Program-made: the position numbers and the translations under genes
In this document: positions 48,162 to 59,437 of the stretch, one piece after another
Layout of the letters: every line of letters begins with the position of its first letter
How positions within the stretch are numbered: position 1 is the stretch's first letter
Assembly (NCBI GenBank): GCA_020431645.1
Contig: JAGQHW010000001.1
Location: forward strand, 1-64,000
DNA length: 64,000 nt
Direction: 5' to 3'
Origin: Carnobacterium sp.
GTDB taxonomy: Bacteria; Bacillota; Bacilli; Lactobacillales; Carnobacteriaceae
Notes under the pieces: generated by a model
The model's input: only the letters and a program-made list of their open reading frames with translations
Told to the model about the DNA's origin: nothing
Database searches by the model: none

Positions 48162-51152
48162 ATGAAAGTCATTACGGTTCAACTCTTTGGTAATTTTCGC
48201 ACGACAATCGATGGTGAAGTTGTGTTGTTTCCATACGGAAAAATACAAGCACTTTTCTCTTACTTAGTTGTAAATAAACGAGCAACTAGGGATGAATTGT
48301 CCTTATTATTATGGGCAAATATGGAAGATCGAATTGCAAAGAAAAACTTACGAAATGCTTTGTACACACTGAAAAAACTCTTTCATGCTTATGACTTGTT
48401 AACTTACGATGGACTTTCTAGTGTTTCGATTCAAGCAGATGCCCAACTAGTGTGTGATTATGATAGCTTTATAAAAAATCCTGATGACTGTGCGACTTAT
48501 GGTGGAGAATTCCTAAAAGGTTGCTCAGTAAAAGGAGCTGAAAATTTCGATTTTTGGATAGATCAACTTAGAGAAGAAACAAAGGGTATCTATTTAGAAA
48601 GAGTGAGATCTAATAGACAAAAAAGCAAAGAAAATAAGGACTACGAAAAATTAGAAATGTATTGCAAATTAATGATTAAAGCAGATGAATTTGATGAAGA
48701 AGCTTATAATGAATTGATGATTTGCTATAAAGATCAGCAGAAATATTCCAGTGCGATTCAAATATACAATGAATTAGCTGATTTTTTGAGCAAGGAACTT
48801 TCCATTATTCCAGATGAAGAGGCAGAGAGCATTTATTTAGATGTATTAGATTTAATGAACCAAAGAGAAGAGAAAGTTTCTTCAGAACGTTTTTTCTTTG
48901 GTAGAGAGAGCGAAGTTCGTTTGTTACAAAAAAACTACTATGAGTTCATTGAAAAAAATATCCAACACTCTTTTTTAATCAGAGGTGAAATGGGCGTCGG
49001 TAAAACAAGATTAAAAGACTATTTTTTGAAAGACAACATCAATCAAGAAAGTCGTATTGTAGAAGTAAGTTGTTATCAATTTGAAAGCAGTTATTCGTTA
49101 AAATCTTGGAAAATGGCCATACTTGAAATAGTAAGAGTAGCTCATGAAGAAAAAATAACTGTTCCATTGTTTTTGATGAATGCCTTATCTGAATTCATCC
49201 CTGATGTTAAAGGGGAATGGATAGTTGAACAGACCAATAAAAAAACATCTCAACCGTATCAAAAACTATTTGGTTTTGAAGAAACGATTACTGAAATCAT
49301 TAAATATATCACAGCCAAGAAAAAAATGATTGTTGTTTTTGAAGATATTCACTGGATGGATGCAGCAAGTTTAGCCCTGTTGACAAGTCTTTTAATAAAC
49401 AATGATTTACCATCTTGTTTATTTGTTGTGTTAAGTAGGAACGAAAAAAATGCGGATTTAGAAAAATTTATTATAAATACGAACTATCATCCAAATATGC
49501 ATCATATTCAGCTAAGTTCCTTTACAAAAGATGAAAATAAACGTTTTATTAACCGCACTTTACCAGATAATCAATTTACTGAAAAACTACACGAAAAAAT
49601 ATATACTGAAACCAATGGCAATGCCTTTTTTCTAACAGAATACTTGCAGTTAGTAGCAAATCACGAAGATCCAGATGAGATGTCTGCAAAAATGATAGAT
49701 GTTCTGCAAAAACGTTTTTTAGATATGACAGAAAATGAAAAACGAATGATAGAGGTAAGCTCATTGTTTTATGATGAAGTACCGTTGCGAATGTTAAAAG
49801 AATTTATCCAATTAGATGAATTGGAAATCATTTATCAAACGGAAAATTTAGTTAAAAAAAAATTACTAGTAGAAACGACAAATGGAAAAGAAATTAGTTA
49901 CGCATTTAACCATCAAAAATTACGTGATTTTGTTTATACATCACTATCTCCTGCCAAAAAAACGATTTTGCATAACCGTGTAGGAAAAAGATATGAAAAA
50001 GAATTAAAAAATAATTTAAGTGATTTAACGATTTATTTTAAACTAATTTATCATTTTGAAAAAGCGGAAAATCATATGGATACTTTGCGCTATCAAGTAA
50101 AAAGAATGGATATGTTGTTAAATTTTGTGCATGAGCGTTTTCCAGTCATCCATTACGATGAAGATTATTTTCGTAAGTTATACATCAATGAAGCAGACGT
50201 AGATCGGATGTTGAGTGAATTAAGGGATAGATTAATTCTAGTCAAAAAAGAAGAAATTTTTTCAAAAGAGATCGCTCTATTAGAAGCAGATATTTTATTT
50301 TTATGTAGCCGCAATCTAATTCGTAAAGGCGACTATTCAAAAGGGTTAAAAGATATCCAGCAGTTGCTAAATTTAGCAGAAAAATACGATATGAAAAAAT
50401 ATCTTTTGGGCGGGTATGAACAGATGATGTGTTATTGTATCCAAACTGAGAATGCAGAAATAATGGCGATTTATCTAAAGAAAATGGGAGAAGTTTTAAA
50501 GAGTGAATTTAAAGAGGAGCAAGGATTAATTTATCGTTACCAAGGATTATATGAAATATTGATCAAAAATTATAAGAATGCAGAAAAATATCTTCAACAG
50601 GGGATTTCTTATTTTGTTCAAAGCGAAGAGCTGTTTGAAAAATACTGTTTGATAATTGCGGCATGCTACAATAACATAGGTGATAGTAAGTTTATATTGG
50701 GTGAACATGAAGAAGCCATTCGTTATTATAAAAAAGCTATTCATCTTTGTGAAGAAAAGAAAAGTTGGATTAGTATTTCTTTATTTGAAACCAATCTTGG
50801 AAGAGTCCTCTTTGAAACAGGAGATTACAAACAGGCTAAAGTCTTTTTAAAAAGAGCAATGAAAACGTATGAGAAAATAGAATACAATATGAGTCAGTCT
50901 ATGGCAGAAGTCTATATGTCATATATGATGATAGAAGAGCACAACTATTCAAAAGCGTTAGAATATATAAAGGATGCGAGCAAACACGCTAAAATACTAA
51001 ACGTTCCAAAGGAAAAAGTCTCTATTAATGAATGGAAAGAAAAAATAAGTCATTTATCTCAAAATGATAAAAAAATAGCGCAAGCATTTGAACCGTATTT
51101 AAAACGACACCCTATAAATATAGACTATAAACAGACTAGTCACGTGAATTAG
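48162..51152 (+). CDS. BTAD/SARP-type transcriptional activator with AAA ATPase and TPR domains
   Basis: A 996-residue regulator. Residues 1-90 form an OmpR-like winged helix (KVITVQLFGNFRTTIDG; DELSLLLWANM); 95-235 a bacterial transcriptional activation domain; then an AAA/STAND ATPase with Walker A GEMGVGKT at 275-282 and Walker B VVFEDIHW near 391-398; the C-terminal third is TPR-like helices. This is the layout of large SARPs such as AfsR. I use the ATG at 48162, with AAAGGTGGG upstream; the frame is open from 48123. Its likely targets are folD and ftcD, whose promoters carry SARP-type direct repeats. The signal bound by the TPR or ATPase part is unknown. Confidence 0.88.
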   Translation: MKVITVQLFGNFRTTIDGEVVLFPYGKIQALFSYLVVNKRATRDELSLLLWANMEDRIAKKNLRNALYTLKKLFHAYDLLTYDGLSSVSIQADAQLVCDYDSFIKNPDDCATYGGEFLKGCSVKGAENFDFWIDQLREETKGIYLERVRSNRQKSKENKDYEKLEMYCKLMIKADEFDEEAYNELMICYKDQQKYSSAIQIYNELADFLSKELSIIPDEEAESIYLDVLDLMNQREEKVSSERFFFGRESEVRLLQKNYYEFIEKNIQHSFLIRGEMGVGKTRLKDYFLKDNINQESRIVEVSCYQFESSYSLKSWKMAILEIVRVAHEEKITVPLFLMNALSEFIPDVKGEWIVEQTNKKTSQPYQKLFGFEETITEIIKYITAKKKMIVVFEDIHWMDAASLALLTSLLINNDLPSCLFVVLSRNEKNADLEKFIINTNYHPNMHHIQLSSFTKDENKRFINRTLPDNQFTEKLHEKIYTETNGNAFFLTEYLQLVANHEDPDEMSAKMIDVLQKRFLDMTENEKRMIEVSSLFYDEVPLRMLKEFIQLDELEIIYQTENLVKKKLLVETTNGKEISYAFNHQKLRDFVYTSLSPAKKTILHNRVGKRYEKELKNNLSDLTIYFKLIYHFEKAENHMDTLRYQVKRMDMLLNFVHERFPVIHYDEDYFRKLYINEADVDRMLSELRDRLILVKKEEIFSKEIALLEADILFLCSRNLIRKGDYSKGLKDIQQLLNLAEKYDMKKYLLGGYEQMMCYCIQTENAEIMAIYLKKMGEVLKSEFKEEQGLIYRYQGLYEILIKNYKNAEKYLQQGISYFVQSEELFEKYCLIIAACYNNIGDSKFILGEHEEAIRYYKKAIHLCEEKKSWISISLFETNLGRVLFETGDYKQAKVFLKRAMKTYEKIEYNMSQSMAEVYMSYMMIEEHNYSKALEYIKDASKHAKILNVPKEKVSINEWKEKISHLSQNDKKIAQAFEPYLKRHPINIDYKQTSHVN

Positions 51153-51240: not shown

Positions 51241-51272
51241 TTGACGTTTTGTAGATGTCCATTGGATAGAAT
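51241..51272 (+). promoter_or_regulatory. folD promoter with SARP-type direct repeats
   Basis: TTGACGT (51241-51247), TTTG, TAGATGT (51252-51258), then 8 bp to TAGAAT (-10, 51267-51272). Heptamer repeats on an 11-bp period, with the second repeat 8 bp from the -10, reproduce the known SARP operator rule. The start codon lies 38 bp after the -10. Confidence 0.7.
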
Positions 51273-51310
51273 GAGGGTAACAAATGAATCAATGAAAGAA
51301 GGTAGATAAA

Positions 51311-52174
51311 ATGGCTATCATTATGGATGGAGAAGTTGTTTCAACCTTATTAATTAAAGCGATGCTAGCTGATCGAGATTGTTTGAGAATGAGAAAAATT
51401 AGACCAACAGTAGAAATAATGAGAGTTGGTAACAAAAAAGATGCACTTGCTTATGAAGCAGCGGTAAAAAAAATGTTTAAAAAAATAGAGATTCGTTGTT
51501 TGGTCTCAGCTTATCCGGATGATGTTTCACAGAAAAAATTAGTTATGGAAATTAAAAGGAAAAACAAAGACAATCGAATTCATGGCATCTTAATTTTACG
51601 ACCATTGCCAGAACAATTAGATGAATGTTTGATAGGTAAATGCCTTGATCCAACTAAAGACAGTGACGGGATGACGCCTTATAACTTAGGAAATATTATT
51701 CTTGAAAACAATTCCTCGCATCTTCCTTGTACACCAATCGCGGTTTTAGAAATGCTTTCTTATTATCAGATAAAATTAGTCGGACAAAGAGTGCTAGTGA
51801 TAGGGCAAAGTGCAGCGGTAGGAAAGCCGTTGACTGTCTTATTATTAAATCGAGGAGCAACAGTAACGACTGCCAATATCTATACAAAAGATTTGAAAAA
51901 AAGTTGCTTAGAAGCAGATGTGATCATTTCTGCTACTGGAAAAAAAGGATTAATTAAAAAAGAATACGTTCCTAAAGGATGTGTTGTGATTGACGTGGGT
52001 ATCTCTGTAGATGCACAAGGTAATGTCAGTGGAGATGTTTGTTTTGATGAAGTCAAAGAACAATGCAGTTATATCACACCAGTACCTGGAGGAATAGGAT
52101 TAATAACGACAACGGTGCTAGCAAGAAATGTCTTATCTACCGCGTTAAATGAAAGCAACGAACAAGTAGTATGA
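51311..52174 (+). CDS. folD: Methylenetetrahydrofolate dehydrogenase/methenyltetrahydrofolate cyclohydrolase (divergent FolD)
   Basis: FolD interconverts 5,10-methylene-, 5,10-methenyl- and 10-formyl-tetrahydrofolate. The 287-residue product has RPLPEQLDE, PTKDSDGM, PCTPIAVLEML, the cofactor loop GQSAAVGKPL, DVGI and TPVPGGIGLITT. The usual YxxxK active-site pair is altered: after the conserved Tyr the sequence is EAAVKK, so the lysine position holds Val and lysines follow one and two residues later. It may thus be a specialised paralogue, resembling a clostridial FolD branch. First gene of the one-carbon island; its stop overlaps the upstream extension of the channel gene. Confidence 0.9.
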   Translation: MAIIMDGEVVSTLLIKAMLADRDCLRMRKIRPTVEIMRVGNKKDALAYEAAVKKMFKKIEIRCLVSAYPDDVSQKKLVMEIKRKNKDNRIHGILILRPLPEQLDECLIGKCLDPTKDSDGMTPYNLGNIILENNSSHLPCTPIAVLEMLSYYQIKLVGQRVLVIGQSAAVGKPLTVLLLNRGATVTTANIYTKDLKKSCLEADVIISATGKKGLIKKEYVPKGCVVIDVGISVDAQGNVSGDVCFDEVKEQCSYITPVPGGIGLITTTVLARNVLSTALNESNEQVV

Positions 52175-52200
52175 CTGGAAAAAAAGGAGGAAGCAAAAAA

Positions 52201-53040
52201 ATGAGTGATTTTAACCCGCAAGAAATTGCACAAATAACAATAGATAAGGGACTAGCTAAAACAAAAACACCAGTAGGAAAAGAAAGTTTGTTAGCCTTTG
52301 TAGGAGGAGCATTTATTTCTATCGGTTACTTAGCGTATATCCGTATTACAGGTACAATGCCGGCTGAATGGGGTGGGTTGAGTACCTTTATCGGGGCTTC
52401 GGTCTTCCCAATAGGTCTGATTCTTATTTTATTAGGAGGAGGAGAGTTGCTAACGGGTAATATGATGGTTGTAAGTATGGCTTACATCAATAAAAAAATT
52501 TCTTTTTTCGATATGATGAAGAACTGGGGAATCGTAGCCTTTTTTAATTTATGTGGTGCCCTTTTTGTTGCTTACTTTTTCGGTCATGTACTTGGTTTGA
52601 CAGAGGGAGTTGTCTTAGAAAAAACTATCGCCGTGGCACAAGCTAAAGTCGGAGATTCATTTTTTGTTGCGTTTGTTTCGGGAATAGGCTGTAATTGGTT
52701 GGTTGGGATGTCTGTTTGGTTGTGTTATGGAACGAAAAATTTTTCAGGTAAAATCCTGGCTATCTGGTTTCCTGTAATGGTTTTTGTTTTAATTGGTTTT
52801 CAACACGTCGTAGCTAATTTCTTTATCATTCCAGCAGCAATTTTTGCTGGTTCGCTATCATGGATTGAATTTATCCGAAATGTTATCCCTGTATTTTTAG
52901 GAAATGCGGTAGGTGGAAGTGTCTTTGTTAGCTTATTCTATTCAATAGCTTATATGAAGAAAACAGTAAAAGTAAAAGAAAAAAGGTATTCAAAAGAGTT
53001 AGCTGTTCAATCGATTTTATCTTCTAAATTAGAAAAATAA
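52201..53040 (+). CDS. Formate/nitrite transporter-family channel
   Basis: A 279-residue FNT-family channel with about six membrane segments. I use the ATG at 52201, behind AAAGGAGGAAG; an in-frame ATG at 52171 overlaps the folD stop (ATGA) and is upstream of that ribosome-binding site. Signature parts are the LLTGNMM segment, GIGCNWLVGMSVW and the gating-histidine segment GFQHVVANFF. In the company of fhs, folD and fchA, formate is the most likely substrate, exported when Fhs runs toward ATP. Confidence 0.9.
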   Translation: MSDFNPQEIAQITIDKGLAKTKTPVGKESLLAFVGGAFISIGYLAYIRITGTMPAEWGGLSTFIGASVFPIGLILILLGGGELLTGNMMVVSMAYINKKISFFDMMKNWGIVAFFNLCGALFVAYFFGHVLGLTEGVVLEKTIAVAQAKVGDSFFVAFVSGIGCNWLVGMSVWLCYGTKNFSGKILAIWFPVMVFVLIGFQHVVANFFIIPAAIFAGSLSWIEFIRNVIPVFLGNAVGGSVFVSLFYSIAYMKKTVKVKEKRYSKELAVQSILSSKLEK

Positions 53041-53074
53041 ACTAAAAAATTAACTAACGAAAAGGGGTAGCATC

Positions 53075-53614
53075 ATGATCACGCAAAAAGATTTAATCAA
53101 ACAAAATGAGAGACCGTATTCTTCTACACAAAAATTAACGATGACCGCTATGTTCATTGCTTTAAATATTGTCTTGAATCAAATAACTATTCCAATAGGA
53201 ACAACCATTGAAATAGGTTTTGCATTTTTACCTATAGCTATAATGGCTTATCTATTCGGGCCTGTACGTGCAGGAGGCGCAGCGATATTTGCGGATATTT
53301 TCGGTTTTTTCTTGAGACCAAATGGCTTTTTCTTCCCAGGTTTCACATTGAATATGGGAATAGCTGCTGCAATTTACGGAATCTTCTTATACAAGAAGCC
53401 TGTTACCCTTAAACGTGTCGCGATCACTGTATTGGTTGTCGACATTATCGTTAGTTTAATTTTAACACCTATCTGGTTAAATATTATGTACCAAACCAAC
53501 CTATTTGCTATTCCACGTGTGATTAAAACCATTATTCTTTATCCAATTAATGTTGGGTTATTGTATTCAAACTTAACATTTGTTCATCAATTTTTTGGTA
53601 AAAAGAACAGATAA
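53075..53614 (+). CDS. folT: ECF transporter S component, folate-specific (FolT-like)
   Basis: A 179-residue, six-segment substrate-binding membrane subunit of an energy-coupling-factor importer. The sequence TMTAMFIALNIVLNQITIPIG and the ADIFGFFLRPNGFFFPGFTL region match folate-type S components. The shared EcfA/EcfA'/EcfT module must come from elsewhere. Placement between folD and folC supports folate as the substrate. Confidence 0.87.
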   Translation: MITQKDLIKQNERPYSSTQKLTMTAMFIALNIVLNQITIPIGTTIEIGFAFLPIAIMAYLFGPVRAGGAAIFADIFGFFLRPNGFFFPGFTLNMGIAAAIYGIFLYKKPVTLKRVAITVLVVDIIVSLILTPIWLNIMYQTNLFAIPRVIKTIILYPINVGLLYSNLTFVHQFFGKKNR

Positions 53615-53656
53615 TTTGTTCATCGTAAATAATTGGATAAAAAGGAGAGAAAGAAA

Positions 53657-55018
53657 ATGGTAGAGACTTATACCGAAGCATTGGATTGGATCCATGGACG
53701 TACTCATTTTGGTGTCCGACCTGGTCTATCACGCGTAAACTATTTATTGAAGCAACTAGGTAATCCGCAAGATCAATTAAAAATAATTCATGTTGCAGGT
53801 ACAAATGGAAAAGGATCGACTGTAACGTATTTGCAAGAATTATTTTTAGCTAAAAAAATGAAAGTAGGGACGTATACCTCCCCATATATTGTGATGTTTA
53901 ATGAACGCATCAGCATTAATGGTAAACCTATTTCAAATGAAGAATTGATTCAACTAGTCAATAAAGTTCAGCCGATTGTTCAGAGAATGGATGAAACAAC
54001 AACAGAGTTACAGGGTATAACCGAGTTTGAAGTGATTACGGCGATGATGTTTGATTACTTTTTAGCAGAAAATGTAGAAGTAGCAGTAATTGAAGTTGGT
54101 TTGGGAGGTTTATTGGATTGTACGAATGTCATTCATACACCTGTTGTCTCCGGTATAACAACGATTGGGTTAGATCATATAGATATTTTAGGAAATACAC
54201 TAGAAGAAATTGCTAGACAAAAAGCAGGAATTATAAAAAAAAATTGCCCTGTCGTAACTGGTAATATTTCTCCAGCAGCGATGACTGTCATTCAAAAAAT
54301 CGCAAAAGAAAAAAAAGCGACTCTTTATCGTTTTAATGAGGAATACCATGTTCAAGGAGAGAATCGTTTTGGTGATTTTATTTTTAGAAATCAACTAGCT
54401 TCATTAGATTCGCTTCATACCCCTTTAATGGGAAAACATCAAATAGACAACGCAGCTCTTGCTATTCAACTTTTCCAGGTTTATATGATTCAAGAGAAAT
54501 TAACGTACACTAAGGAGCTTATTCAAGAAGGGCTAGAAAGAGCTTTTATTGCAGGAAGAATGGAAACGATATCAGACAATCCACTCATTATTATAGATGG
54601 AGCACATAATGTTCCAGCTGTTCACAAATTAAAAGAGACTATTCACTCAACAGTGATTGAAAATAATGTTGATATAAAAAAAATAAACATACTTTTTGCA
54701 GCAATTGATACGAAAGATAGTCTAGGCATGATTAGTATTCTAGAAGATATTCCAAATAGTGAACTTATTTTGACTTCTTTTCAAAATGATAAGGCTTGTT
54801 CCGTTGACGAACTAATGACCTTATCTGGTTTAACCCATAAAGTCTACCTTGATTGGCAAGAAGCAATGACGCATATAGTAGTTGGAATGAAGGCAGACGA
54901 AGCTTTATTGATTACTGGATCATTGTACTTTATTTCTGATGTACGTAAAAAACTAATTGAAACGCCAATCGTATCTATAGAAAAAAAGATAAAAGAATTA
55001 GCAATAGACGTTTTGTAG
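53657..55018 (+). CDS. folC: Folylpolyglutamate synthase
   Basis: Adds glutamates to tetrahydrofolate, trapping folates in the cell and improving binding to folate enzymes. I use the ATG at 53657 (AAAGGAGAG 7 nt upstream), giving 453 residues; the frame is open from 53633. The Mur-ligase fold shows the N-terminal RTHFGVRPGL, the P-loop VAGTNGKGST, GLDHIDILGNTLEEIA and IDGAHN. Its last codons overlap the SARP-type repeats of the ftcD promoter. Confidence 0.92.
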   Translation: MVETYTEALDWIHGRTHFGVRPGLSRVNYLLKQLGNPQDQLKIIHVAGTNGKGSTVTYLQELFLAKKMKVGTYTSPYIVMFNERISINGKPISNEELIQLVNKVQPIVQRMDETTTELQGITEFEVITAMMFDYFLAENVEVAVIEVGLGGLLDCTNVIHTPVVSGITTIGLDHIDILGNTLEEIARQKAGIIKKNCPVVTGNISPAAMTVIQKIAKEKKATLYRFNEEYHVQGENRFGDFIFRNQLASLDSLHTPLMGKHQIDNAALAIQLFQVYMIQEKLTYTKELIQEGLERAFIAGRMETISDNPLIIIDGAHNVPAVHKLKETIHSTVIENNVDIKKINILFAAIDTKDSLGMISILEDIPNSELILTSFQNDKACSVDELMTLSGLTHKVYLDWQEAMTHIVVGMKADEALLITGSLYFISDVRKKLIETPIVSIEKKIKELAIDVL

Positions 55019-55036
55019 ACGCTTACATTATATAGT
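55005..55036 (+). promoter_or_regulatory. ftcD promoter with SARP-type direct repeats
   Basis: TAGACGT (55005-55011), TTTG, TAGACGC (55016-55022), then 8 bp to TATAGT (-10, 55031-55036). The geometry is identical to the folD promoter, and the 13-mer GACGTTTTGTAGA is shared exactly. The start codon lies 39 bp after the -10. Confidence 0.75.
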
Positions 55037-55075: not shown

Positions 55076-56053
55076 ATGAGTAAGAAACATGTATTGTGCG
55101 TACCAAACTTTAGTGATGGTAAAAATATGGAAGGAATCAACGCAGCAGTAGAAGCAGTGAAAAATGTACCAACTGTCAAAATTGTAGCTGTTGAACCAGA
55201 AGCAAACTTCAATAGAACTGTATTAACATATATCTGTGATCCAGAATATTGTGAAGAGTCTATGTTAAAATTAGCTGAGCAATTATACAAATTTATTAAT
55301 ATGGAAACTCAAAAAGGCGACCATCCTCGTATTGGTGCACTAGATACAATGCCAGTCTTTCCATTAGGAGAAATGACATTAGAAGAAACAACTGAACTAG
55401 CAGAAAAATTAGGCCAGTCCTTACATGATCATTTCAGCGTTCCTGTTTATTTTTCTGGTCAAAATGCACGAACTGAATATAAAAAATCAAATACAAACAT
55501 TCGCCGTGGACAATATGAAGGTTTGAAAGCTATTTTAGAAGACAAGGAAAATGAAAAATATGACGAAAGAAAACCAGATCTAAGTGTTAATGGAGAATTA
55601 GATGCTAAGATGGGCGCATGTACGGTTAGTTCAGATCTTGAAGGATTAACAGCCTACAACGTCTATGTGGAGTCAGAAGATGTCAGTATTTCTAAGAAAA
55701 TTGCTAAACGAGTGAAGAGTGACGAACATGGCTGGGCTTCTATCAAGAGTGTTGGCTTCAAAGATGAAGGACATCCAGGAACAGCTGTCTCAATGAATGT
55801 ATTTGATGCTAGCGAAACACCATTGGCTATGTTAAGTGAATGGGTAAATGTTGAAGCTGAAAAAGATGGAACAAAAGTAATCAGCACTGGTTTAGTTGGA
55901 CCAGTTAAATTGAAGTATATTGTAGAAGCTGCTCAACACTATGGTCACGAGTTTGATGGCAAAGATTACGACGGTATGATTAAAGTGTTAGAAGATAAAA
56001 TGGGCTTAGAAGGATTCAAAAAAGAATCGATTATTGAATATCACTTAGATTAG
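55076..56053 (+). CDS. ftcD: Glutamate formimidoyltransferase (single-domain FtcD)
   Basis: Transfers the formimino group from N-formimino-L-glutamate to tetrahydrofolate. The 325-residue protein is the transferase domain only; the cyclodeaminase is encoded separately by fchA. The start CVPNFSDGKN and the active-site block GDHPRIGALDTMP are conserved, with His83 as the expected catalytic base. No hutH, hutU or hutI is nearby, so the formimino donor must come from elsewhere or from another substrate such as formiminoglycine. Followed by a terminator before the TSUP gene. Confidence 0.93.
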   Translation: MSKKHVLCVPNFSDGKNMEGINAAVEAVKNVPTVKIVAVEPEANFNRTVLTYICDPEYCEESMLKLAEQLYKFINMETQKGDHPRIGALDTMPVFPLGEMTLEETTELAEKLGQSLHDHFSVPVYFSGQNARTEYKKSNTNIRRGQYEGLKAILEDKENEKYDERKPDLSVNGELDAKMGACTVSSDLEGLTAYNVYVESEDVSISKKIAKRVKSDEHGWASIKSVGFKDEGHPGTAVSMNVFDASETPLAMLSEWVNVEAEKDGTKVISTGLVGPVKLKYIVEAAQHYGHEFDGKDYDGMIKVLEDKMGLEGFKKESIIEYHLD

Positions 56054-56096: not shown

Positions 56097-56128
56097 AAAA
56101 ATACTCTTTTCAGAGAGGAATGAAGACA

Positions 56129-57043
56129 ATGGAAATAAAAATTATATTGGGCTTATTGGTTCTTTTAACCATTTACTTCTTAATCATTTTTATCCAGGAT
56201 TACAGAAAAGCTAAAAAAGAAGGCAAATTAGAAGAAGGAAGCAACTTTGTTACTTTTTCTGTACTAGGATTTATTGCAAACTTTTTTGATACATTAGGTA
56301 TTGGTAGTTTTGCAACATCAACATCCGCATTCAAAATTGGTAAGTTGATGCCTGATAAGATGATACCAGGAACACTAAACGTTGCAACAACCACTTCAGT
56401 TGTAATGGAAGCACTTATATTCATGACGCTTGTTAAAGTAGATATCTTAACGTTAGTTTTAATGATTGGTTTTTCAATGTTAGGTGCTTATTTTGGAGCA
56501 AGTATTGTTTCAAAATTACCAGAAGTAAAAATCCAATTTGCGATGGGTGTTGCTCTAGTCATTGTAGCCTTTTTAATGCTAGCTGGATTCTTAAATATCT
56601 TCCCGATGGGAGGAGCTGCAATTGGATTAAGAGGTATTAAATTAGTTATCGGCTGTACAGTTTGTTTTATCTTAGGAATTACAAACTGTGTTGGTATAGG
56701 GATGTACGCACCAATTATGGCTTTAGCATTCGCTATCGGGTTATCTCCATTAGTTGCTTTTCCACTAATGATGGGTTCAACAGCATTCTTGCAGCCAGTT
56801 GCTTCTGCTAAATTTATTAAAGAAGGTATGTATCACCGTAAAGCTTCACTAGCTTATAGTATCTTTGGAGTGCTAGGTGTCTTAGTAGCCGCCTTTATTG
56901 TGAAATCATTGCCTATTAACGTTTTGAAAATATTAGTATTCGTTGTTGTTATCTATACAGCTCTTATGATGTTTAGATCAGCTATTAAGAACATGAAAGA
57001 GAAAGCTAATTCAAAAAATCAAGAAGCTAGTGTAACAGAATAA
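56129..57043 (+). CDS. TSUP-family membrane permease (TauE/SafE type)
   Basis: A 304-residue protein with about eight hydrophobic segments and the TSUP pattern of two repeated halves (GFIANFFDTLGIGSFATSTS near residue 50 and GITNCVGIGMYAPIMALAFA in the second half). I use the ATG at 56129, 10 nt after AGAGG; an ATG at 56120 is too close. Family members carry sulfonates, sulfite or other small organic anions. A membrane gene of this kind also accompanies ftcD-fchA-fhs in some streptococcal hut operons, so uptake of the formimino substrate or export of a product is possible. Confidence 0.85.
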   Translation: MEIKIILGLLVLLTIYFLIIFIQDYRKAKKEGKLEEGSNFVTFSVLGFIANFFDTLGIGSFATSTSAFKIGKLMPDKMIPGTLNVATTTSVVMEALIFMTLVKVDILTLVLMIGFSMLGAYFGASIVSKLPEVKIQFAMGVALVIVAFLMLAGFLNIFPMGGAAIGLRGIKLVIGCTVCFILGITNCVGIGMYAPIMALAFAIGLSPLVAFPLMMGSTAFLQPVASAKFIKEGMYHRKASLAYSIFGVLGVLVAAFIVKSLPINVLKILVFVVVIYTALMMFRSAIKNMKEKANSKNQEASVTE

Positions 57044-57094: not shown

Positions 57095-57721
57095 ATGCAA
57101 CTTGTCGACTTAACCATTACAGAATTTATTGGAAAATTAGGATCAAATGAACCAGCTCCAGGAGGTGGCTCAGCATCTGCATTAGTAGCAGGCGTCGGAG
57201 CAGCACTAACTCGTATGGTGGCAGAATTAACAATTGGCAAACCAAAGTATGCAGAGTATAATGATGAAATGGAACTTGTTCTTGAAGAAATGAAAGTTGT
57301 TAACACAAATCTATTAGAATGCATTGATCGAGATACTGAAGCATTTAACCAAGTATCTGCGGTATTCGACCTACCAAAACAAACAGATGAAGATAAGCAA
57401 AAGCGTCGTGAAGCAATGCAGGCAGCTTTAAAATATGCAACAGAGATTCCTTTTGAAACAATGGAATTCATTTTAGAAGGGATTCATTTAACAGCTAAAG
57501 CAGTTGGTAAATCAAATACAAATGCAGCTAGTGACTTAGGCGTAGCAGCTTTAACAATGAAAGCAGGCTTATGTGGTGCATGGTTAAATGTTTGTATTAA
57601 CTTGAGTGGTGTAAAAGATGAAGAATTTAAAAATGATTACACAACTAGAGGAAAAGCTATTTTAGCAGAAGGCATCAAGATAGCAGACGATATCTATGAG
57701 GAAATTGAAAAATCACTCTAA
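57095..57721 (+). CDS. fchA: Formimidoyltetrahydrofolate cyclodeaminase
   Basis: Releases ammonia from 5-formimino-tetrahydrofolate to give 5,10-methenyl-tetrahydrofolate. The 208-residue helical protein has the family start EPAPGGGSASALVAGVGAALT near residue 17 and SDLGVAALTMKAG late in the chain. Some family members act as methenyl-tetrahydrofolate cyclohydrolases, which would matter if the local FolD has lost that activity. AGGAGG precedes the ATG, and fhs follows 39 bp later. Confidence 0.92.
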   Translation: MQLVDLTITEFIGKLGSNEPAPGGGSASALVAGVGAALTRMVAELTIGKPKYAEYNDEMELVLEEMKVVNTNLLECIDRDTEAFNQVSAVFDLPKQTDEDKQKRREAMQAALKYATEIPFETMEFILEGIHLTAKAVGKSNTNAASDLGVAALTMKAGLCGAWLNVCINLSGVKDEEFKNDYTTRGKAILAEGIKIADDIYEEIEKSL

Positions 57722-57760: not shown

Positions 57761-59437
57761 ATGACTTTTTTAACAGATATTGAAATTGCAAAAAAAAATA
57801 CAATGAAGCCAATCACTGAAGTGGCAGAAAAATTAGGTATCCAAGCAGATTCATTGGATATGTATGGAAAATATAAAGCAAAACTAGATATCAGTGAGTT
57901 AGAGAGACTAAAAGATCAGCCAAATGGTAAATTGATCTTAGTGACAGCAATCACACCGACTGCAGCTGGAGAAGGCAAAACAACCACGTCTGTTGGACTA
58001 GCGGATGCTTTGAATAAACAAGGAGAAAAAGTAATGGTTGCTTTAAGAGAACCCTCACTTGGACCTGTATTTGGCGTAAAAGGTGGAGCTGCTGGTGGTG
58101 GTTATGCACAGGTTGTACCAATGGAAGACATCAACTTACACTTTACTGGCGATTTTCATGCTATTGGAGCAGCTAATAATTTACTTGCTGCGTTAATAGA
58201 TAATCATATTTTTCATGGTAATGTATTAGATATTGATAGCAGACGAATCACGTGGAAGCGCGTTGTTGATATGAATGACCGCCAATTGCGTCATGTTGTT
58301 GACGGTCTAAACGGTAAAATGAATGGGGTTCCAAGAGAAGATGGTTACGATATTACTGTAGCTTCAGAAATTATGGCGATTCTTTGTTTAGCGGATAGTT
58401 TAGATGATTTGAAAACTAGAATTAAGCGAGTAGTTATTGGCTATTCAAGAACAGGCAAACAAGTTACCGCTGGTGAGTTGAAAGCTGAAGGCGCAATGAC
58501 AGCTTTATTGAAAGATGCTATTCGTCCTAATATCGTCCAAACGCTAGAGCATACACCGGCTATTATTCACGGTGGACCATTTGCGAATATTGCTCATGGG
58601 TGTAACAGTGTTATTGCAACGAGAACAGCTTTAAAATATGCTGATTATGTTGTGACCGAAGCAGGATTTGGTGCTGATTTAGGCGCTGAAAAATTTATCG
58701 ATATTAAATGTAGAAATGCTAATTTAAAACCAGATGCTGTAGTGTTAGTTGCAACAATTCGTGCATTGAAGATGCATGGCGGCGTAAAAAAACAACAACT
58801 ATCAGAAGAAAATATCCAAGCAGTTGAAGCTGGATTACCAAATATGTTAAAACATATCAGTAATATGCGTGATGTATTTGGCTTGCCACTAGTTGTTTCA
58901 ATCAATAAATTCCCAACAGATACACAAGCAGAAGTCGATGTTGTTATGAAAGCTTGCCAAGAAATCAATGTACCAGCAGTCTTATCTGATGTGTGGGCAA
59001 AAGGTGGAGAAGGCGGTTTAGAAATGGCTGACGCTGTTAAGAAATTAGTGAACGAAGAAAATAACTTCAAATTTGCTTATGAGTCAGAAGATACAATCGA
59101 AGAAAAATTACACAAACTGGTTACAAAAGTTTATGGTGGCGTTGGAGTAGAGTACTCACCAGAAGCTAAAAAAGAGATGAAAGTATTAACTGAAAATGGC
59201 TACGGTCACTTACCTTTATGTGTAGCTAAGACACAATATTCTTTCTCAGATAATAAAAACTTATTGGGTAGTCCAGAAGGATTTATAATTACCATTAAGA
59301 ATTTAAAAGTATCTGCTGGTGCCGGATTTATCGTAGCATTGACAGGTGCTATAATGACAATGCCTGGTTTACCAAAAGTTCCTGCCTCTGAAAATATTGA
59401 CGTAGACGAAGCTGGTGAGATCACAGGACTTTTCTAA
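57761..59437 (+). CDS. fhs: Formate-tetrahydrofolate ligase
   Basis: Interconverts formate + ATP + tetrahydrofolate with 10-formyl-tetrahydrofolate + ADP + phosphate. The 558-residue protein has the ATP loop [12 protein letters not shown] at residues 65-76, [20 protein letters not shown], and [14 protein letters not shown]. In this island it is best read as running toward formate and ATP. It is the last gene and is followed by a strong terminator. Confidence 0.97.

Follow-up and report, generated by a model that had tools for sequence, protein, structure and literature searches.

The question raised by the folate island of Carnobacterium sp. in the first 64,000 nucleotides of contig JAGQHW010000001.1 (assembly GCA_020431645.1; this whole stretch is referred to as the window) is which regulator acts on its two promoters, those in front of folD and ftcD. 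An earlier note on this DNA had read the heptamer direct repeats in these promoters as operators of the SARP type, and the gene just upstream of the island as that of a BTAD-domain regulator. SARPs have been described mainly from actinomycetes and their antibiotic clusters, and as a rule the repeats that they bind are spaced by 11 or 22 bp, with 8 bp between the final one and the -10 (PMC10936776). Sequence comparison leads us to the conclusion, to which we assign a probability of about 0.88, that both sites in the window are operators of the large SARP-type activator encoded just upstream, and that this activator belongs to a group that normally accompanies histidine utilisation in Bacillota. 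The elements concerned are the following.

48162..51152, forward strand: large SARP-like regulator of 996 aa, with winged helix-turn-helix, BTAD, AAA/STAND-like ATPase and TPRs
51241..51258, forward strand: folD operator, TTGACGT (51241), TTTG (51248), TAGATGT (51252); 4-bp spacer, 11-bp period
51267..51272, forward strand: predicted -10 of folD, TAGAAT, 8 bp past the operator; ATG at 51311, 38 bp between
55005..55022, forward strand: ftcD operator, TAGACGT (55005), TTTG (55012), TAGACGC (55016); 4-bp spacer, 11-bp period
55031..55036, forward strand: predicted -10 of ftcD, TATAGT, 8 bp past the operator; ATG at 55076, 39 bp between

When the sequence was read again, the heptamers, spacers and start distances given in the earlier note all proved exact, and the 13-mer GACGTTTTGTAGA, said to be shared by the two promoters, has exactly two copies in the window. 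An extended 17-base pattern, TNGANGTTTTGTAGANG, has two copies in the 2.5-Mb genome, namely the folD and ftcD sites, and its reversed control has none; a looser pattern gives ten matches versus five for the reversed control, and among these ten only the folD and ftcD sites lie just upstream of a complete open reading frame in the same direction. As the coding DNA of related loci has about 1.5 matches to the loose geometry per Mb and strand, two sites that are so well placed are not attributable to chance. For the eight further loose matches no targets are claimed, those examined being intragenic, antisense, facing away or near contig ends, and near-13-mer matches in other genomes were likewise set aside, the short loci around them having no match to the island proteins of the window. 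The ftcD operator and the 3' end of folC share sequence, such that the folC stop codon (TAG, 55016-55018) supplies the opening three bases of the second heptamer. Rfam gave no RNA element for the region or for four loci.

A scan of the genome collection with the FtcD of the window yielded one relative, Neobacillus paridis (71% identity), in which a BTAD gene that is 47% identical to that of the window is followed by the same eight genes in unchanged order. The comparison of promoters in a relative that keeps the BTAD gene, as proposed in the earlier note, could therefore be made in this genome, which indeed holds both operators in register: the folD site (locus L109, 6012) reads TTGACGT-TCTA-TGGATGG-8 bp-TAAACT and the ftcD site (L109, 9930) TAGACGT-TTTG-TTGACGC-8 bp-TAGACT. 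The heptamers thereby keep 12/14 (folD) and 13/14 (ftcD) of the bases found in the window, versus 15 and 7 kept in the 40 bp upstream.

The distribution of the regulator points to a second, more common genomic context. At a threshold of E <= 1e-60 a homologue is present in 34 of the 395 sampled Lactobacillales genomes, 33 of which also carry urocanase (Fisher 1e-12 for the co-occurrence at the genus level), the exception being the genome of the window. The regulator gene lies near ftcD-fchA-fhs in the majority of these loci, and genes for urocanase, an imidazolonepropionase-like protein, HutD, a permease and a histidine lyase were identified in example loci. In family f3 (families were labelled f1-f9, and we infer the name Streptococcus for f3) a more diverged homologue adjoins a full hut operon that has the same operator sites. 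No new member came from a search of 399 class-wide genomes, of which those listed were largely Lactobacillales. Outside the Bacilli, the clostridial Acetoanaerobium noterae (NZ_CP154629.1) encodes a BTAD homologue (31% identity) about 7 kb from hutH-hutU; its hutH is preceded by the sequence TAGACTA-N4-TTGACGG, 8 bp before TATCCT. Two observations on this genome stand apart: there are two repeat pairs upstream of hutH, at 2816 and 3036 of locus L135, and the record is labelled a plasmid yet is 2.6 Mb long.

The geometry itself was mapped by scanning 38 BTAD loci, the window included, for TWGAY...TWGAY...TANNNT with periods of 7-15 and gaps of 4-12. The combination of period 11 and gap 8 has 54 intergenic matches and all other combinations have 0-9, while the coding DNA of the same loci, which is nine times as long, has 2 matches at period 11 and gap 8. 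For the repeat pair alone there are 101 matches at period 11 versus 2-12 at periods 7-10 and 12-29. Nearly all intergenic matches are on the correct strand, upstream of the divergent hutU/hutI or of a MutL/GlmL-like gene. Among the 78 upstream regions of hutU/hutI in the 39 genomes taken as BTAD-positive (including f3 genome L117, the BTAD gene of which lies outside the stretch fetched), 71 contain the exact pair (shuffles: 0.6) and 69 have a -10-like hexamer 7-9 bp past it (shuffles: 0.1), counts that are not independent because many of the genomes are closely related; several of the seven promoters that lack the exact pair are one base off. When sites from the window, Neobacillus, four Lactobacillales families and the clostridium are aligned without gaps, the same columns are invariant, and the information is concentrated in T-W-G-A-C and in the -10, with spacers that vary between genera. 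The sites thus have two features of SARP operators: direct repeats with an 11-bp period, and a 3' repeat that is 8 bp from the (predicted) -10.

The protein encoded upstream has the corresponding architecture. The earlier identification of the gene at 48162-51152 as that of a BTAD regulator holds (Pfam BTAD, 31.8 bits versus a cut-off of 22.1), and the additional AAA_16 and TPR matches, together with a P-loop-like motif (GEMGVGKT, residues 275-282), provide the C-terminal nucleotide-binding and TPR domains of a large SARP of the AfsR type. The predicted structure of residues 1-263 (mean pLDDT, i.e. predicted local distance difference test, of 89) matches AfsR in the transcription complex 8k60 with Z 16.7 (root-mean-square deviation 5.2 over 223 residues) and EmbR 2ff4 with Z 15.4 (5.0 over 224 residues), whereas background matches to TPR proteins lie near Z 12. 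Both matches span the winged helix and the BTAD; residues 2-234 align with AfsR 8k60, so that an OmpR-type winged helix at the N-terminus is followed by the BTAD, as in SARPs. At the sequence level the relation to AfsR is weak: a single-sequence comparison against the PDB retrieved TPR proteins only, whereas profile and fold searches did retrieve EmbR and AfsR. Within the putative recognition helix (residues 59-72), K61, N62, L63, R64 and N65 are invariant across 17 homologues (the window, Neobacillus and 15 of the hut type), which fits the heptamer core that their sites share. Of the residues by which the recognition helix of AfsR contacts DNA, R87 and K95 align in the weak sequence match (E 0.09) with the invariant R64 and the nearly invariant K72, and T88 and R92 are replaced.

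The sites might nevertheless belong to another regulator. The alternative that survives best, improbable though we consider it, is that an OmpR-family response regulator (PhoP- or WalR-like) uses the repeats as its boxes and that the BTAD gene is a mere neighbour. Direct repeats of about 11 bp are also the targets of such response regulators in Firmicutes, boxes of this kind being present in Bacillus. PhoP and WalR are known from most bacteria of the groups studied here, so on this alternative hut genomes that lack the BTAD regulator should carry the sites as well. Four genomes of family f7 provide this control: their HutU/HutI are 71-81% identical to those of a BTAD-type cluster, and no BTAD homologue was found in their hut loci or at the genome-wide threshold, nor in one of them (G043) at a laxer threshold. 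The repeat pair is present in 0/7 of their usable hutU/hutI promoters, compared to 71/78 above (Fisher 7e-7, for promoters that are not independent), which argues that the sites follow the regulator and not the hut genes. AfsR and PhoP do have common sites in Streptomyces (PMC10972967), but the strict motif is rare genome-wide and resides mostly in BTAD/hut loci: 20 of 29 genomes that have the BTAD gene carry it, compared to 4 of the 31 other genomes. Matches outside these loci in three of the genomes (G394, G210 and G261) led no clear genes, save one before an ABC-type gene in G210.

Still less credible is that these are ordinary sigma-A promoters in which a TTGAC-like -35 was doubled by accident. 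The heptamer core TTGAC does resemble a -35 and the predicted -10s are good, but with starts 26 and 15 bp before the -10 the repeats, read as -35, would leave spacers of 20 and 9 bp. The mean match to TTGACA is 0.7-1.4 of 6 at 16-18 bp from the -10 and 5.0 at 20 bp, i.e. at the first repeat; the folD promoter of the window in particular has no -35-like hexamer at 16-18 bp. The same hut genes, where the BTAD regulator is missing, moreover have no pair. With no usable -35 at 16-18 bp, and with repeats that end 8 bp from the -10, the arrangement matches that of published SARP promoters (PMC10936776) and points to an activator. That two promoters in one AT-rich locus should merely look alike by chance, as could be suspected from there being two copies only in the window and from the random occurrence of loose 13-mer matches, is contradicted by the Neobacillus sites at the same two places and by dozens of promoters elsewhere, and we give it next to no credence.

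Several points weigh against assigning the sites to the SARP-type activator. The residues known to contact sigma in AfsR are conserved only in part; the BTAD-negative control consists of one genus and four genomes; no operator was found before the BTAD genes, hence there is no sign of autoregulation; and the separate ftcD operons that were scanned in hut genomes have no strict site, except for the ftcD that follows hutU. On balance, the SARP-type reading of the operators in the earlier note is supported, by the sites kept in Neobacillus, by the same geometry before hutU/hutI elsewhere and by its absence from the f7 controls. Their geometry stands; what has to be given up is the notion that they are special to the folate island, as they accompany what is apparently a common regulator of histidine utilisation.

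Some further arrangements were seen in the hut-type loci. In certain hutI promoters (L092, 15028; L094, 15055) the series continues with an 11-bp step to a third repeat, which overlaps the predicted -10. In L072 (6647 and 6882, forward strand), and also in L076, L085, L019, L082, L071 and L078, the DNA that separates the ftcD operon from a divergent MutL/GlmL-like gene contains two SARP-like pairs 200-300 bp apart, both facing away from ftcD. The first of these pairs would imply a leader of about 250-375 nt ahead of glmL, and it is also seen in L082, a locus without a glmL match; the arrangement may reflect a long leader, a small RNA or a small open reading frame.

The known system that is closest to the one proposed is AfsR of Streptomyces coelicolor (PMC10936776; PDB 8hvr, 8k60), which has the same fold of winged helix-turn-helix and BTAD, an ATPase and TPR tail, and an afs box of two direct repeats with an 11-bp period between a -10 and a weak or absent -35. 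The two proteins are only about 16-17% identical, the operator core in the window is TWGAY and not the afs repeat, and AfsR is concerned with antibiotic regulation whereas the regulator considered here would control histidine and folate catabolism in a low-GC host. The small and large SARPs of antibiotic clusters (such as ActII-ORF4, DnrI and PimR; PMC10972967) likewise bind heptameric direct repeats, classically in 11-bp units near the -35 region and in some cases three in number, but differ in host phylum, target pathway and heptamer sequence. EmbR of Mycobacterium tuberculosis (PDB 2fez, 2ff4) is alike in its winged helix-turn-helix and BTAD fold, but has an FHA tail and another target. Within the Firmicutes, BrpL of Streptococcus sanguinis (SSA_0427; PMC5987052) is a BTAD-TPR regulator annotated as SARP-like; it occurs, among others, in S. 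pyogenes and S. gordonii, but not in S. mutans or S. pneumoniae (PMC5987052). BrpL may be the streptococcal hut-linked protein, although it was studied for biofilm and the main text of that paper is without hut, urocanate or operon (PMC5987052). In the open-access literature we found neither a SARP operator in Firmicutes nor a regulator of the streptococcal hut genes described, and a regulon survey of lactic acid bacteria (PMC3616900) makes no mention of hut or SARP.

By analogy with AfsR (PMC10936776), two SARP domains would bind side by side on the repeats, replace the -35 and engage sigma region 4, the beta flap and the alpha C-terminal domain to recruit the sigma-A RNA polymerase, while the AAA-TPR half would keep the protein inactive until it is released by ATP and an inducer. 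For the hut clusters this inducer would probably be histidine, urocanate or formiminoglutamate, to judge from the context. In the window the switch would drive two sets of genes, folD-focA-folT-folC and ftcD-tauE-fchA-fhs.

51311..52174, forward strand: folD paralogue (methylene-tetrahydrofolate dehydrogenase/cyclohydrolase), by Pfam; NCBIfam below cut-off
52201..53040, forward strand: formate/nitrite-type transporter, FocA-like
53075..53614, forward strand: folate ECF transporter S component FolT (TIGR04518, 126 bits versus a cut-off of 60)
53657..55018, forward strand: folC-like folylpolyglutamate synthase (Mur-ligase family), its 3' end overlapping the ftcD operator
55076..56053, forward strand: FtcD-type glutamate formimidoyltransferase, 325 aa (TIGR02024, just above cut-off)
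56120..57043, forward strand: TauE/SafE-family permease
57095..57721, forward strand: FchA-type cyclodeaminase/cyclohydrolase (NCBIfam FchA model below its cut-off)
57761..59437, forward strand: fhs, formate-tetrahydrofolate ligase

The encoded pathway would load a formimino group onto tetrahydrofolate, with recovery of ammonia, ATP and formate; we take it that formimino-tetrahydrofolate is converted to ammonia, formate and ATP, that formate leaves via the FocA-like channel and that FolT and FolC supply the folate. Urocanase, the mark of the hut loci, gave no match in the genome of the window (an assembly of 290 contigs that is 92% complete), and the island FtcD, 71% identical to that of Neobacillus, is only 28-34% identical to the FtcDs of hut clusters. 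Both the regulator and this FtcD are absent from four genomes of the same genus (G001-G004), and the island was therefore probably gained horizontally, or lost in those genomes.

Comparison across the loci thus yields repeats with a TWGAY core, an 11-bp period and a distance of 8 bp to the -10 that track the BTAD gene. It appears likely to us, if less so than the assignment of the two window sites, that a phylum-wide SARP branch, ranging over streptococci, enterococcus-like families, Bacillaceae and Clostridia, controls histidine and formimino-folate catabolism in Bacillota via tandem-TWGAY promoters without a -35, the window and Neobacillus being an offshoot with a different formimino donor and inducer. 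The joint presence of fold, operator and exact spacing in low-GC bacteria suggests that the replacement of the -35 works with the RNA polymerase of Bacillota as well, and that this is a widespread mode of gene control in lactic-acid bacteria and streptococci. SARP-type control would here serve primary metabolism, and a regulator of histidine breakdown is predicted for streptococci and enterococcus-like bacteria.

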